Source: Gammaproteobacteria bacterium (GTDB lineage: Bacteria; Pseudomonadota; Gammaproteobacteria; Tenderiales; Tenderiaceae). From it: DNA of 34,192 nucleotides. This document shows positions 24,299 to 30,677 of this stretch, piece by piece. Position numbers and translations under genes: made by a program. The stretch lies in NCBI GenBank assembly GCA_021731365.1, contig JAKFXL010000019.1, forward strand, positions 1 to 34,192, given 5' to 3'. Within the stretch, counting starts at the first letter, position 1; each line of letters begins with the position of its first letter. Under the pieces are notes generated by a model. The model saw only the letters and a list, made by a program, of their open reading frames with translations, was not told the origin of the DNA and ran no database searches.

Positions 24299-24359
24299 CG
24301 CTGGCTAATGGCTTTGTGATTTTGTCCGATGATTAGGGTTGTAGATGAAGGAACACTCC

Positions 24360-24767
24360 ATGCCGTATATTGAATTTAATAACAGCCTGCGGGTTGGCAA
24401 CAGGCTCATGGATCAGGAGCATGAGATGCTTGTTGGGTATATCAACCAGTTGCAAAAAGTGGTTGAAGAGGTTGCTGACAGCAATGTTATTAAACAGGTT
24501 ATACGGGGTCTGGTTGAGTATAGCCGTACCCATTTTTTTGTTGAAGAAGAGCTGATGAGGGCGTACGGCTACCCAGACAGCGAGTTTCATCTTCGTGCTC
24601 ATGAAGGATTTCGTGCCAATGCCAGTGCATTAGTGCGTGACATGGATATGGGGGATGAGATTGATCTGGGGCAGATGTTGGGATTTTTAACCGAATGGTT
24701 AACCGACCATATTCTAAACACGGATGTTCAATTAGCGGATTTCCTCAGAGACCAGACGCTGGTTTAA
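24360..24767 (+). CDS. Bacteriohemerythrin
   Basis: 135-aa single-domain hemerythrin with a non-haem di-iron centre that reversibly binds O2 in the cytoplasm. All seven ligands are in place: H21, H58, E62 (HxxxE), H77, H81 (HxxxH), H117 and D122 (HxxxxD). It begins with the family sequence MPYIEFNNSL. A start 15 bp upstream is possible, but the ATG at 24360 has AAGGA at 7-bp spacing. Such proteins supply or buffer oxygen or serve as sensors in microaerobic bacteria. The 3' end overlaps by 4 bp that of the convergent response-regulator gene; the opposite operon encodes a possible oxygen-sensing kinase. Confidence 0.94.
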   Translation: MPYIEFNNSLRVGNRLMDQEHEMLVGYINQLQKVVEEVADSNVIKQVIRGLVEYSRTHFFVEEELMRAYGYPDSEFHLRAHEGFRANASALVRDMDMGDEIDLGQMLGFLTEWLTDHILNTDVQLADFLRDQTLV

Positions 24768-24777
24768 CCGCTGGTCT
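24749..24777. repeat. Inverted repeat over the overlapping 3' ends of two convergent genes
   Basis: AGACCAG / CTGGTCT (24749-24755, 24771-24777) forms a 7-bp perfect stem around the shared TTAA in which both genes stop. With no T-tract on either side, it is at best a weak bidirectional terminator or an mRNA-end hairpin. Confidence 0.45.
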
Positions 24778-25168
24778 TGGTGAGCAGGGTCTGCATGATT
24801 GCCAACAGCTCTTTGGATTTATAAGGCTTATGTAAAAAACCACCCAGCCCCAGTGCCTGGGCGCGTGCTTTATCAATGGCATCGCTATAGCCGGTGCAGA
24901 GCAGGAAGGGCAGTGTGGGGCGTAAAATAAACATCTGTGCGGCCATCTCTGTGCCGGTCATGCCAGGCATTGTTTGATCTGAAATGACTAGATCGACTGC
25001 TTCAAATTTATTTTCAAAATGGTGTAAAGCGGTGGCAGGGTCGTTAAATGTGATGACCTGATAGCCGCGACTGCCGAGCAGTGCTGCAAGAAACAGCGTA
25101 ATTGACTCTTCATCATCAACAACCATGATGTTGGCGGGGTGTTGTTGCTGTTGTGAAAAATTATCCAT
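24764..25168 (-). CDS. Single-domain response regulator (distal)
   Basis: 134-aa CheY-like receiver with no output domain. The acidic pair is D18/D19, the phosphoacceptor is D64 (VISDQTMPG), the switch threonine is T92 (LLCTGYSD) and the conserved lysine is K114 (HKPYKS). It follows the histidine kinase by 23 bp on the same strand, so it is probably a phosphotransfer target of that kinase, acting through protein contact rather than DNA binding. A Gln-rich N-terminal tail (SQQQQH) precedes the domain. It is the last gene of the signalling operon, and its end overlaps the bacteriohemerythrin gene. Confidence 0.9.
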   Translation of the reverse strand: MDNFSQQQQHPANIMVVDDEESITLFLAALLGSRGYQVITFNDPATALHHFENKFEAVDLVISDQTMPGMTGTEMAAQMFILRPTLPFLLCTGYSDAIDKARAQALGLGGFLHKPYKSKELLAIMQTLLTKTSG

Positions 25169-25191
25169 GACGCTCTTTTATCTCCAGGCAT

Positions 25192-27891
25192 TCAGGTGCA
25201 GAGTGGTTCATGTTCGTTAAACAGTAGCCGGAATTGACTGCCGGTTTCAGGTGAGCTGGATAACATAATGTGCCCCCGCGCCTCGTGCATAATGCCATGG
25301 ACCATGGCCAGCCCCATACCGGTCCCTTTACCAATCGGTTTGGTGGTGAAGAAGGGTTCGAATATGCGCTGTTGTGTGGTGGCATCCATGCCGGGGCCAC
25401 TGTCGCTAATACATAACTCCACATGGTTGCCGGAGAACCCCTGATGACAGGAGCTGCATATGGCATTTTCCAGGGTGATTTTTTTCACGGAGATCGTGAG
25501 TGACCCAGTGCCATTCATGGCATCACGGGCATTAATGCAGAGATTGAGCACGATCTGTTGCAAGCCGATGGTATCGAGCAATACTGTTGGTGTATCGGGA
25601 TCAAGCGCGGTCTCCATGGCGATGCTTGATGGTAATACAGGTCGTAACAGTTTGAGCATCTCAGGAATGGCGTTGGAGAGCAGCACAGGTTCTGGCATGT
25701 TGGCGTCGCGGCCACGGCTAAATGCCAGCATTTTGGCGACCAGATCACGGGCTCGTTCACCAGCACGATAGATCTGTGCCAAGTGGCTGCTGAGTGTGGC
25801 GTACCCCTGTGCCTGAGCGATCTCTTGCGATAGTTCAGTAAAACCGAGAATGCCTGATAGCATGTTATTAAAATCGTGGGCGACACCGCCTGTGAGCTGG
25901 CCAATGGCCTCCATCTTCTGTGCCTGTGCAAGCTGCCGCTGCAGCCGTTGTCGTTCGAGCTCTGCAGTTTTACGCTCTGTGATGTCGCGCACTACGCCGA
26001 TAAAGACGGGACGCCCAGCACGGCTGATTTGCGATACTTGTAACTCCATTAAAAAAGTCGCCCCATCTTTACGCCGTCCTGTCACTTCCCGGCTCATGCC
26101 AATAACATGTTTCTCTCCGGTGGTGAGATAGTGATGTAAATAGTGATCATGTTGGTTGTGATGGGGCTCTGGCATTAACATGTTGATGTTGTTGTTGATA
26201 ACTTCGGCGGCGCTGTATGTAAAGATCGATTCTGCCGCATGGTTGAATGCAGTCACAATACCGTGTTCGTTAATAGTGATAATACCTTCAATCAAATTGT
26301 CGAGGATAGCTTGAGTATGCCGGGCCTGTTCTTCACGACTGCGTTCAGCGGCAGCCCTTTCCATTTCAGCACTCAGGCGGGTGGCAAATATTTTCATGAT
26401 GGTAATACTGCGCTTCTCATCTTCAATGGGCTTCCGGAAGAGAATCGTCATGTGGCCAATAATACGTCCCTTGTCATTAAGAAATGGAATGACCAGAAGT
26501 GATTCAATGTTTAGCAGGAGAGGACAATCGGGGTAATGTATGTATGCCTGTTCGGTGATACATAAGTGTTCACCAGGATTGATAAGCGAACAGGGTGTTT
26601 CGTCAATATTGCACTCAAAATTGTCATGGAACTCACCATTGCTCCATACGGCAAGTGTCCGGGATCGGCGTAATATCGGATCGGTGATTTCTGTGACTAT
26701 CACAGTGTCCGCCTCCAAGGCCGTTGCAGCGGTCATTGCACTCACTCTGAACACCTCATCGGCAGAGTTTGCGGTTGTGCCAAGAAAAATCGCCTGCAGG
26801 GTATTTTTTTCCCGCTCCATATCGGTCATTGCGGTTCTTAGTATCTGTTCATCCCGTTTACGCTCGCTGATGTCCTGGACAAGGGTTAAATAGAGTGTCT
26901 CATCCTGTCCTGTTATTTCAGTGATTTTAAATTCAGCGGGAAAGACCTTTTCGCCACGACGGACAGCATGAGCGGTAATGGCACCCTGATTGATGACACG
27001 CCCCCGATGCTCAGCAGAGCCCATCCAGCCTTGATGTTGGGCGCGCTGTTTTGGCGGCATTAGTATGTTGACGTTACGTCCTTTCAGTTCATGCTCTTCA
27101 TAACCAAAAATAGCGCAGGCCGCTGCATTTACTGACTCAATAGTACCGTTGGCCCACACGGTAATGATGCCGTCTGGGATATGTGATACTACAGCGAGCA
27201 GTCGCTGTTTACTTTGCAGTAGTTTGTTTGTCATGGTTTGAAGCTGGATACGCATGGTCTCCAGGGCAGCGGCTAACAAACCTATCTCATCGTGACCACG
27301 TTGTATAATCGGTTCATTGAAGTTGCTTTGTGCCAATATTTTTGCGGCGGATGCCATCTCTTCCAGCGGGCGTCGTATTAACCAGTCCTGCAGTATAAAA
27401 TTCAGTGTTAATCCCGTGGCAATGAATGCAAAAACGATAAGACTGATCAGGTTTATCTTTGAAAGCTCGGCCTTTAATTGTGTGCGTGGATCAAACTGTA
27501 GTGTTATTTGTGCCAGTGGTGCACCGCCAAAATCGATGGGGACTGAGATCTCCATCATATTGGACAAATCCTGTTTATGGGTGACCATTAACGGATAGAT
27601 CTGTTTTTTGTTCGGATTGTTGAGCTGTAACCGCTTCCAGGTTGGATCGGTGGCGATAACAGAATCCAATGTTTTGTATATCTGGGCGAGGTCATCAGAG
27701 AGCAGTGGTTCGACCAGGGCAAGACTGAGTATGTGCAGCTTTATCTGTTGCTCCTGCTGTATATTGGTGATGGTATTATCGGTTTGCCATGGTACCCATA
27801 ACCATTGAGTCAAGGCGAGCAGCAGGCCTAATACAACCAATCCAGGTAACAGTAATTTGGTGCGAATGGTGGTGAATCTGTTAATCCTCAT
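25192..27891 (-). CDS. Membrane sensor histidine kinase, HAMP-PAS-GAF-PAS
   Basis: 899 aa. Order: TM1 13-34, a small periplasmic domain 35-147, TM2 148-168, HAMP about 169-222, PAS1 about 228-345, GAF about 362-515, PAS2 about 525-640, HisKA with phosphoacceptor H672 (GGVAHDFNNML), and HATPase about 770-895 with the N-box (LNLCINARDAM), G1 (SDSGPGM) and G2 (GTGMGLAMV). There is no attached receiver. PAS2 looks like the FixL haem-PAS: H581 in QHDHYL and R601 in MSREVTG fall where FixL has its haem ligand and distal arginine. A CxxCH (812-816) lies inside the ATPase domain. The start overlaps the end of the PhnD-like gene by 11 bp, so the two are translationally coupled; a response regulator follows. 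Confidence 0.93.
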   Translation of the reverse strand: MRINRFTTIRTKLLLPGLVVLGLLLALTQWLWVPWQTDNTITNIQQEQQIKLHILSLALVEPLLSDDLAQIYKTLDSVIATDPTWKRLQLNNPNKKQIYPLMVTHKQDLSNMMEISVPIDFGGAPLAQITLQFDPRTQLKAELSKINLISLIVFAFIATGLTLNFILQDWLIRRPLEEMASAAKILAQSNFNEPIIQRGHDEIGLLAAALETMRIQLQTMTNKLLQSKQRLLAVVSHIPDGIITVWANGTIESVNAAACAIFGYEEHELKGRNVNILMPPKQRAQHQGWMGSAEHRGRVINQGAITAHAVRRGEKVFPAEFKITEITGQDETLYLTLVQDISERKRDEQILRTAMTDMEREKNTLQAIFLGTTANSADEVFRVSAMTAATALEADTVIVTEITDPILRRSRTLAVWSNGEFHDNFECNIDETPCSLINPGEHLCITEQAYIHYPDCPLLLNIESLLVIPFLNDKGRIIGHMTILFRKPIEDEKRSITIMKIFATRLSAEMERAAAERSREEQARHTQAILDNLIEGIITINEHGIVTAFNHAAESIFTYSAAEVINNNINMLMPEPHHNQHDHYLHHYLTTGEKHVIGMSREVTGRRKDGATFLMELQVSQISRAGRPVFIGVVRDITERKTAELERQRLQRQLAQAQKMEAIGQLTGGVAHDFNNMLSGILGFTELSQEIAQAQGYATLSSHLAQIYRAGERARDLVAKMLAFSRGRDANMPEPVLLSNAIPEMLKLLRPVLPSSIAMETALDPDTPTVLLDTIGLQQIVLNLCINARDAMNGTGSLTISVKKITLENAICSSCHQGFSGNHVELCISDSGPGMDATTQQRIFEPFFTTKPIGKGTGMGLAMVHGIMHEARGHIMLSSSPETGSQFRLLFNEHEPLCT

Positions 27892-28720
27892 AAAACTTGT
27901 CCAGACGCATTTTTTTTAAGGGGTCGTAATCTTTTAGCTGGGCAATAGCGACGTTTTTGATAGGAATCTGGCTCAGCATCTTCTGCCCGGATTTTGTTTT
28001 TCCCAGTGATAACATTGTTTGCTGTATTGCATTTCTGATGGGCTCAGGAACTCGTGGATGAGCAGTCAGCGGGTGTGGGGCGACAGCATCGGTGGTATGC
28101 AGGATACGGAGTTGATCCCGTACCGTTGCAGATTGATGGGCGAGTGTGCTGGCAACGCCGCCACCTGCTACAGTGTTGCCTAGCACGACATTGAGATAGA
28201 CCGAGTCGTGACTGTTCACGTAACGTGGTTTAAAGGTGATGTTTACTTCACGTGTCAGCATTGCACGTATCATTAATGATGCACCCAGTGCATTGGGTGA
28301 AGGGAAGGCGATGCTTTGATCACGTAGCTCTTCAAGTTTCATGTAGGGGCTATCTTTTCGTACAACCACAATACCGCGCAGCTCTGTTGCAACATCGCGC
28401 ACCAGGGGGATGTATTCATTGGTTGCGGTGGTTTTAAGAAGTTGGTAGGGGTTGACATAGGCAAAGTCAAATTCGCCGGCGAGTAACTGCTGCTCAAACA
28501 CGGGAATGGTCTGACTGCCACGTAGCACAAAACTGTGCCCGGTACGTTGCTGTAACTCTTTTAAAATAGGACGCCAGATCTGCTGTGTGGTGCGGGCATC
28601 AAATTGCGGTACAACACCTATGGTGAAGTTATCAGCCTGACAGATACTGCTGCTCATTATCAACGTGATGATGGTGAGCCAATGGTAAATGTTTATTCTA
28701 CCTGCTGCCTGAGTTGCCAT
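27881..28720 (-). CDS. PhnD-like periplasmic substrate-binding protein
   Basis: 279-aa periplasmic binding protein of the phosphonate/phosphite (PhnD) type II fold. The signal peptide has a hydrophobic core (YHWLTIITLIMSSSI) with CQA cleavage; this does not form a lipobox clearly. Family features: FTIGVVPQFDARTTQQIW, FDFAYVNPYQLL, the LRGIVVVRKDS strand, AFPSPNALGASLM and GGGVAST. I chose the ATG at 28720, which has AAGGAG 5 bp upstream, over the one at 28738, which has none. No ABC permease or ATPase accompanies it. It sits between a response regulator and a membrane histidine kinase and overlaps the latter, so it probably serves as the kinase's ligand-binding partner rather than in transport. 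Confidence 0.88.
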   Translation of the reverse strand: MATQAAGRINIYHWLTIITLIMSSSICQADNFTIGVVPQFDARTTQQIWRPILKELQQRTGHSFVLRGSQTIPVFEQQLLAGEFDFAYVNPYQLLKTTATNEYIPLVRDVATELRGIVVVRKDSPYMKLEELRDQSIAFPSPNALGASLMIRAMLTREVNITFKPRYVNSHDSVYLNVVLGNTVAGGGVASTLAHQSATVRDQLRILHTTDAVAPHPLTAHPRVPEPIRNAIQQTMLSLGKTKSGQKMLSQIPIKNVAIAQLKDYDPLKKMRLDKFYED

Positions 28721-28756
28721 ATGAACTCCTTTTTGCATTGGTGGTAAAAATCAGGA

Positions 28757-29125
28757 TCACCCGGCAATCGTTGAAATTGCGGCACATAGCTCCTCACGTT
28801 TGAAGGGTTTTCTTAGAATGTTTCCCGCTCCAATCAGTGTGGCCAGTGGCAGATAATCAAAACGGCCATTGAGTCCACCACCACCAGACATCGCCACAAT
28901 TTTTGCGTTGGGGGCGAGTTGGCGGATTTCTAAAATAAGATCGATACCGTTTTTTTCTGGCATGACCAGGTCAGTGATGACCAGATCGATCTGTTCACGA
29001 CGCAGTATCGTTAACGCAGCATTGCCATTTTCGGCAGTCAGCAACTCATGTTCTGGTGACTCCAGCATGGCGCTTACCAGCAGCCGCATGTGGGGTTCAT
29101 CGTCGACAACTAAAATTTTTATCAT
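28757..29125 (-). CDS. Single-domain response regulator (proximal)
   Basis: 122-aa CheY-like receiver. The acidic pocket is in VVDDE (D8/D9), the phosphoacceptor is D52 (VITDLVMPE), the switch residue is the serine of AMSGGGG, and the lysine is K106 (RKPFKR). There is no output domain. I took the ATG at 29125, preceded by AAGGAG at 6-bp spacing, rather than the in-frame ATG at 29143. It is the first gene of the operon, 36 bp before the PhnD-like gene, and has a 14-bp palindrome and a TATAAT-like element upstream. Two receivers with one kinase suggest a branched or competing phosphotransfer. Confidence 0.9.
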   Translation of the reverse strand: MIKILVVDDEPHMRLLVSAMLESPEHELLTAENGNAALTILRREQIDLVITDLVMPEKNGIDLILEIRQLAPNAKIVAMSGGGGLNGRFDYLPLATLIGAGNILRKPFKREELCAAISTIAG

Positions 29126-29139
29126 AGTGATCTCCTTGT

Positions 29140-29153
29140 CCATAGGCCTATGG
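29140..29153. repeat. 14-bp perfect palindrome before the signalling operon
   Basis: CCATAGGCCTATGG, a perfect palindrome immediately upstream of the AAGGAG of the first response-regulator gene. It could be an operator or a leader hairpin affecting ribosome access. Confidence 0.55.
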
Positions 29154-29414: not shown

Positions 29415-30677
29415 TTATTTTTTATCGCGGCTAATGGCCCAGGTGCCATCGCCATCCGGCGCGGCAGAGTGCTGGACGTTGACAAAGAGGGTATGGGGAT
29501 CTTTGCCAAAATAGATGCCACTCCCCTCTGCCTTCGGGTCACTGAGAGAGCCAAACAGCCATACTCGATCCGCCATGCCATCCCGGTTGTTGTCGGGGCT
29601 GGCCACCCAGATATCAGAGGGGAGGTTATCCTCAATAATCATCAGCTTGCCATCCGGTGTCACGGCCAGATTGTCTGGGTTATCAAACCCGGTCTGGAAA
29701 TGGGCAGCGCCGGGGCTGCCTATCTCGACAGGCACATTAAGACCCGGTTTAATGAAGTTGCTGACGCTCAGGGTGGCAAGGTTGATAGCCAGGACCCGGC
29801 CATCATAAAGTTCTACATTGCCCTCATACTCGCCTTCGGTAATGGCGGCATACAGGATATTACCGATAATCTGTAAATCCTCAGGCCGGTTGTATCCCGT
29901 CCCGCCTGCGGTGGTACCCGACTGGCGAGCGGCATGGGGATCGATAGGGCCCACCCACTGGCCGGTGCCAGTACCATCACTATTGCCACTGACTTTCAAT
30001 ACATAGAGCTTGCCTGCGCTGAGATCGCCGTAGTGGTCTGGTACAAATCGGTATATGCCGCCGCCATAACCCTCTTTCTGGCCACGAAACTCATCAACGG
30101 TGTAGACCGAGCCATCGTTACCGACCTGAATACCTTCACGCGCCATCAGCCCCATGGCAGGGCGCTCGTGGGCGGTGCCATACATCAGGTTGTTATCTTC
30201 GAGCACAATCTCAAAAAGTCGGCCATTATCCTTCTCCTCAACCACCAGCAGTGTCCCCCAGGGTGTCCAGACAATCCCGTCGATTGCGCTCCAGTCCGCA
30301 TGTTGCACCAGTACCCGGCTCTTACCACTCTTCAGGTCCACCACCGAAACGGCCCCCCCCTCAGTGGTTTGATGGATCTCATGGGTACGGTAGAGATAAC
30401 GCCCGGCCTGTTTACCGGTTTCGTTTACCGTGTTCATATCGTTCCAGTCGTTGCGGCCATTATTGTAGATATTGAGATCGGACTCGCCTGACACAATCTT
30501 CTGGCTGAAGCCTGGGGGTAATTTCCACGGTGCAGCGGCGTTCCAGTCGGCGCTGTTGGCAGAGCCATCAATAGGTACAAAGCCAAAAGGGCCGGTCAGG
30601 CTGCTACTGTCAGCCTGGGCGGTGGAGAGTGTCAGGCAGAAGAGAATGGAGCGGGTGAGAGTGTGGTAGCGGTTCAT
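29415..30677 (-). CDS. Secreted PhoX/DUF839-type protein
   Basis: 420 aa. A signal peptide (SILFCLTLSTAQA, cleavage near residue 23) leads to a beta-propeller-like protein of the PhoX/DUF839 group. Members include calcium/iron-dependent alkaline phosphatases and many uncharacterised exported proteins. Recognisable pieces are WTPWGTLLVVEE, EGIQVGNDGSVYTVDEF, GGGIYRFVP, NRPEDLQI, PDNLAVTPDGKLMIIED and the closing LFVNVQHS, typical of the family end. AGGAG precedes the ATG. No Tat twin-arginine is present, unlike classical PhoX, so Sec export is likely. The catalytic calcium/iron ligands could not be verified by eye, so phosphatase activity is only presumed. Confidence 0.85.
   Translation of the reverse strand: MNRYHTLTRSILFCLTLSTAQADSSSLTGPFGFVPIDGSANSADWNAAAPWKLPPGFSQKIVSGESDLNIYNNGRNDWNDMNTVNETGKQAGRYLYRTHEIHQTTEGGAVSVVDLKSGKSRVLVQHADWSAIDGIVWTPWGTLLVVEEKDNGRLFEIVLEDNNLMYGTAHERPAMGLMAREGIQVGNDGSVYTVDEFRGQKEGYGGGIYRFVPDHYGDLSAGKLYVLKVSGNSDGTGTGQWVGPIDPHAARQSGTTAGGTGYNRPEDLQIIGNILYAAITEGEYEGNVELYDGRVLAINLATLSVSNFIKPGLNVPVEIGSPGAAHFQTGFDNPDNLAVTPDGKLMIIEDNLPSDIWVASPDNNRDGMADRVWLFGSLSDPKAEGSGIYFGKDPHTLFVNVQHSAAPDGDGTWAISRDKK

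Follow-up and report, generated by a model that had tools for sequence, protein, structure and literature searches.

The four genes described here are located in the window, a stretch of DNA of 34,192 nucleotides. They probably encode a two-part sensor, in which a PhnD-like periplasmic binding protein is coupled to a membrane histidine kinase and a second input, most likely oxygen, would be received in the cytoplasm. Pairs of this kind are widespread and belong to a known class of mechanism, while the plug-in form with this binding protein and this periplasmic sensor domain (SensorN) is previously undescribed. A description of a pairing of PhnD with GGDEF or Cache domains was not found in the openly accessible literature. 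A bipartite sensor had already been proposed in an earlier note on this DNA, and the near one-to-one pairing of both genes across genomes supports this proposal well.

Gene order and architecture of the kinase

According to the open reading frames of the window, the genes are tightly packed on the minus strand in the order RRn (receiver), binding protein, kinase and RRc (receiver), and these coordinates agree with the order given in the earlier note (Table 1). The overlap of 11 bp, which had been noticed between the genes of the binding protein and the kinase, is exact (ATGAGGATTAA). The distance between RRn and the binding-protein gene is 18 bp, and 23 bp separate the kinase gene from RRc. 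Because better ribosome-binding sites stand at the inner starts 29125 (RRn) and 28720 (binding protein), these are probably the actual starts. The end of RRc overlaps the convergent bacteriohemerythrin gene by 4 bp. In another genome, a hemerythrin-like gene (L143, 6101-6565) is likewise placed beside a pair of RRn and hybrid kinase. Between the operon and the preceding gene, a hairpin with a T run occurs at 29389-29369, in a region whose hairpin counts do not exceed those of shuffled sequences. Upstream of the operon, beyond this hairpin, a PhoX-like beta-propeller gene (29415-30677) is located on the same strand.

Table 1. Genes of the locus and domains of the kinase, with their positions in the window.
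Feature	Position	Strand	Remarks
RRn, standalone receiver	28757..29143	-	probable start 29125; residues DD, D, S and K intact; GGGG-x-x-GRFDY loop
PhnD-like periplasmic binding protein	27881..28738	-	start more likely 28720; signal peptide, followed by type II PBP fold
Membrane histidine kinase, 899 aa	25192..27891	-	phospho-acceptor H672
SensorN periplasmic domain, residues 33-147	27451..27795	-	interval TM1-TM2; single-Cache/PDC-like
HAMP linker, residues 165-217	27241..27399	-	PF00672
PAS1, residues 229-350	26842..27207	-	domain match
GAF-like by eye, residues 351-518	26338..26841	-	no Pfam or PDB match
PAS2, predicted FixL-type heme PAS, residues 519-645	25957..26337	-	H581, H595, R601
HisKA and HATPase_c core, residues 664-892	25216..25902	-	Pfam
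RRc, receiver	24764..25168	-	corresponds to C-terminal REC of hybrid kinases
Bacteriohemerythrin	24345..24767	+	NF033749, E 1.2e-30; possible functional neighbour

Pfam assigned the domains HAMP, PAS, PAS, HisKA and HATPase_c, in this order, to the kinase. The structure model (pLDDT 89) places a domain of about 110 aa in the periplasm at about residues 35-147 (33-147 in Table 1), where a small periplasmic domain had been expected. For this SensorN domain no Pfam family was found, including no match to Cache; its model matched WalK, CdgS9, CitA and LuxQ with Z scores of 8.9-12.4. LuxQ is the receptor of the binding protein LuxP. Since LuxQ is among these matches, the modelled fold of SensorN is compatible with docking of a binding protein, with which it agrees but which it does not prove. 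Of the cytoplasmic PAS and GAF domains that had been described, the PAS domains were confirmed by two Pfam matches, whereas the GAF label for residues 351-518 found support neither in Pfam or PDB nor via a relative.

PAS2 aligned over its full length and without gaps to the heme PAS of FixL (116 bits, 8e-33), and the next best match in the PDB was the heme PAS of DosP. In this alignment, H581 corresponds to H200, the heme ligand of FixL, while H595 and R601 (the distal Arg) correspond to H214 and R220. The residues were taken from the PDB alignment, as a strict text pattern missed obvious relatives. FixL-like PAS sequences are common, and heme binding has been shown for only some of them; for PAS2, it is a strong prediction. 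As PAS2 is FixL-like and carries the heme-ligand His and the distal Arg, the sequence supports a cytoplasmic oxygen input to the kinase, which is more specific than the perhaps oxygen-related input suggested before. With the predicted heme PAS, the kinase is a candidate integrator of two signals. Like in FixL, PAS2 directly precedes HisKA and contains the equivalents of H200, H214 and R220. In contrast to FixL, the window kinase additionally possesses a periplasmic sensor, PAS1 and the GAF-like segment, and the operon has no DNA-binding regulator of the FixJ type.

Pairing of the binding protein with the sensor domain

Profiles of the binding protein and of SensorN were searched in 369 genomes drawn from the class. 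The cut-off was at least 320 bits for the binding-protein subfamily and at least 200 bits, or more widely at least 140 bits, for the sensor domain. The context of the orthologs was read in related genomes and in named genomes. At 31 of the 33 loci with a binding protein of at least 320 bits, the sensor domain was encoded directly downstream on the same strand. Vice versa, the binding protein was located just upstream of the sensor domain in 28 of 29 cases at 200 bits or more, and in 32 of 38 cases at 140 bits or more. In genomes outside the profile building, 14 of 15 binding proteins and 11 of 12 sensor domains were paired, counts from which one further genome was omitted after it was found to be a training record. 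The pairing is far beyond chance. Missing co-occurrence with the kinase in other genomes had been named as evidence against a bipartite sensor, but the co-occurrence was strong. Of the order PhnD, kinase and receiver, for which a neighbourhood survey had been suggested, the pair of binding protein and sensor recurred. The exact order RRn, binding protein, kinase and RRc was absent at the other 42 pairs examined and was seen only in the window, which agrees with the statement that this arrangement was not known.

Downstream of most orthologs, a protein with two transmembrane segments is encoded. Its N-terminal half can be aligned with that of the window kinase, W85, P100 and G204 being invariant, and its periplasmic part belongs to no Pfam family. 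All partners of the 43 pairs contain HAMP (43/43); HisKA is present in 25 and GGDEF in 18 of them, and 15 of the latter set also possess EAL. The output has been exchanged repeatedly, as six changes of the output type were counted on the tree of the binding proteins by parsimony, at least three of which are forced by well supported branches. Binding proteins of the next tier (220-320 bits) usually adjoin signalling proteins with two transmembrane segments, the periplasmic parts of which obtained low or no scores with the SensorN profile.

Sensor-domain proteins without an intact adjoining binding protein were found at the loci L098, L102, L106, L108, L111 and L112. At L102 (5752-6018) a binding-protein remnant of 88 aa is present, and in the genome of L106 (G081) the binding protein is encoded on a different contig. 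The distances of binding proteins and sensor domains correlated with an r of 0.54, which must be ascribed to joint inheritance and not to contact, because the correlation with HAMP was equally high (r 0.56). Since it is not specific to the periplasmic domain, this correlation was rejected as a proof of contact.

Signalling could also proceed from the inside to the outside, as in LapD. The cytoplasmic domains would then set the Cache-like domain, which captures or releases the binding protein. This is unlikely: although the output domain of the LapD ortholog CdgS9 was the second-best Foldseek match of SensorN and many partners carry GGDEF-EAL, 25 of the 43 partners are histidine kinases, a form ill-suited to an output of the LapD type. 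Furthermore, the protein to be captured has a ligand-binding fold and is not a protease such as LapG.

The two receivers and the proposed signal path

Both receivers are single-domain proteins of PF00072 with intact phospho-acceptor Asp and catalytic residues, so that the description of two output-less receivers flanking the pair holds true. Sequence comparison indicates that their origins differ. At the loci examined, every match of RRc with at least 55 bits (14/14) is the C-terminal REC domain of a protein in which it follows a kinase core matching that of the window kinase. RRc is therefore best read as a REC domain which turned into a separate gene; alternatively, the fused form is the derived one. 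RRn belongs to a subfamily of standalone receivers, which occur with about 50% identity in other genomes. At 18 loci, RRn is mostly located beside a kinase with the same core and usually with a fused REC, and at L155 it lies directly before a sensor-domain protein. An MCP gene is part of the RRn cluster at 10 loci (L142, L145, L147, L148, L151, L153, L154, L155, L156 and L158). A cluster of chemoreceptor, RRn and kinase is thus recurrent; the cluster of L153 also contains HTH-REC and REC-HD genes, and that of L155 a CheA-like gene.

In the proposed mechanism, the secreted PhnD-like protein would bind its ligand, probably not a phosphonate, and would dock on the Cache-like periplasmic domain of the kinase. 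The signal would be passed on from TM2 via HAMP, PAS1 and the GAF-like segment to the FixL-type heme PAS, and this input would control the autophosphorylation at H672. Subsequently, the kinase may phosphorylate RRc, which would take the place of the fused REC in related hybrid kinases; RRn is probably a further target. Because neither receiver has an output domain, both may act through protein contact or in a relay. A branched phosphotransfer had been suggested for this system. It is supported in part only; a relay or tuning function is as likely as a branch, because RRc resembles a detached receiver of a hybrid kinase. A system of RRn, kinase and REC exists elsewhere without the binding protein; the operon is therefore probably an evolutionary splice, in which a transferable cassette of binding protein and Cache-like input was combined with such a system.

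It is improbable that the effect of the binding protein is vestigial and that the kinase is mainly a FixL-like oxygen sensor with two receivers, since the binding protein of the window retains the motifs of its subfamily and an intact, overlapping reading frame. Such a reading would fit to the predicted heme PAS, which is well conserved, to the wide distribution of the same kinase core and RRn without a binding protein, and to those sensor-domain genes that have lost it, as shown by the 88-aa remnant at L102.

Family, pocket and putative ligand of the binding protein

The binding protein belongs to PF12974 (Pfam, E 7.5e-53), and its score with the PhnD equivalog TIGR03431 is far below the cut-off (70.6 versus 261.1 bits). 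The nearest solved protein is ArrX (E 1.3e-10); ArrX, PtxB and PhnD are the closest folds to the structure model (pLDDT 91; Foldseek). PhnD and AioX hold the oxyanion with a Ser-x-Ser motif at a helix start, one His and two Tyr, and the conserved pocket of the AioX type comprises Ser161, Ser163 and His192, with Cys106 for arsenite (PMC5908839). The sequence PNSTSG of E. coli PhnD aligns with PNALGA in the subfamily of the window protein, i.e. Ser-Thr-Ser is replaced by Ala-Leu-Gly. Both pocket serines are replaced throughout the sensor-paired set and in most proteins of the next tier. The pocket His is kept (H177), Y94, N96, D115, H222, H227 and R229 are invariant in an alignment of 28 rows, and the mature protein does not possess the Cys of AioX. 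Because the Ser pair is lost, phosphonate, phosphite, arsenite and arsenate are unlikely ligands. The phosphite and phosphonate considered in the earlier note are accordingly disfavoured in view of the exchange of Ser-x-Ser for Ala-x-Gly. The pocket points to a ligand that is probably of a non-phosphonate kind; the protein might also bind no ligand at all.

In the genome, which is 98.8% complete, no PhnE-type permease was found above the cut-off of TIGR01097, and the four weak matches are other permeases. No such permease occurs beside the four PF12974 loci of the genome, and none was found adjoining the orthologs in a search with E. coli PhnE as seed, a fragment of a pseudogene product with a lower sensitivity than the model TIGR01097. 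The claim that the binding protein is transporter-less is hence true genome-wide, and ABC permeases beside orthologous binding proteins, which the earlier note had held to speak against its proposal, did not appear in the form of PhnE at any ortholog. It is very unlikely that the protein is an orphan ABC component (PhnD), which serves a permease encoded elsewhere and adjoins the kinase for merely regulatory reasons. Its membership in PF12974, a family named after ABC transporters, would agree with this role. The missing PhnE in the nearly complete genome, the TIGR03431 score of 70.6 against a cut-off of 261, the missing Ser-x-Ser motif and the orthologs, which adjoin signalling proteins and never PhnE, largely refute it.

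All four PF12974 loci of the genome adjoin signalling genes. At the locus on contig 43, the neighbour is a hybrid kinase that shares its periplasmic domain with the window kinase; a kinase and receivers, one of them with GGDEF-EAL, are encoded at the locus on contig 52, and a PAS kinase and a receiver at that on contig 54. The transporter-less PF12974 proteins beside kinases and receivers at L036 (8035-12404) and L037 (605-5425) of the same genome belong to different subfamilies, and that of L036 retains an oxyanion-like motif (ESTMSH).

That binding proteins can activate receptors is generally accepted as a mechanism, both for kinases and for c-di-GMP enzymes (PMC9602780), and AioX and ArrX represent the same mechanism for PhnD-type proteins (PMC5908839). 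The window resembles the systems AioX-AioS-AioR and ArrX-ArrS-ArrR, as a transporter-less PhnD-type protein is encoded with a membrane kinase. It differs from them in the pocket, which has kept only the His (H177) and neither the AioX Cys nor Ser-x-Ser, in its receivers without DNA-binding output, in that no arsenic enzyme was seen nearby, and in the partner domain, which also occurs on GGDEF-EAL proteins. That the operon encodes an arsenic oxyanion system of the AioXSR or ArrXSR type is extremely improbable in spite of ArrX as the nearest solved protein (E 1.3e-10) and the similar gene pairing (PMC5908839), as the Cys is absent from the mature protein, the Ser pair is replaced, the receivers have no DNA-binding domain and no molybdoenzyme was recognised by eye among the open reading frames of the window. 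In TtrS and ThsS, which respond to tetrathionate and thiosulfate, the PhnD-like domain is the periplasmic sensor within the kinase itself (PMC5408782), whereas it is a separate protein in the window.

The locus is similar to LuxP-LuxQ, TorT-TorS, NspS-MbaA and ScrB-ScrC, in which a separate binding protein acts on a kinase or c-di-GMP enzyme via the periplasmic domain of this receptor, and the periplasmic domain of LuxQ is Cache-like, as is the model of SensorN. These systems use binding proteins of other families. The window locus is further distinguished by a single-Cache-like sensor domain without a name and by one subfamily of binding proteins common to kinase and c-di-GMP outputs.

With evenly balanced confidence, it is proposed that the signalling subfamily of PhnD-like proteins and the Cache-like domain form a transferable cassette, which occurs in kinases, hybrid kinases and c-di-GMP enzymes and would report one non-phosphonate ligand in all of them. 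In the window kinase, it would be combined with the heme PAS, so that chemistry outside and oxygen inside the cell are integrated. With this cassette, a sensor domain that is not covered by Pfam becomes defined, and the 43 pairs represent a natural set in which one input drives either kinases or c-di-GMP enzymes. Through the cassette, the question of the ligand can be tested once for many bacteria.

Relatives of the binding protein are designated in databases as 'phosphate/phosphite/phosphonate ABC transporter substrate-binding protein'. Because of the pairing, the missing permease and the altered pocket, this annotation is doubtful. Relatives of the second tier annotated as ABC substrate-binding proteins are also encoded on large plasmids of Vibrio coralliilyticus (L129) and Salinivibrio (L130), where they directly precede the gene of an 'ATP-binding protein', which is likely a kinase, with EAL genes nearby.
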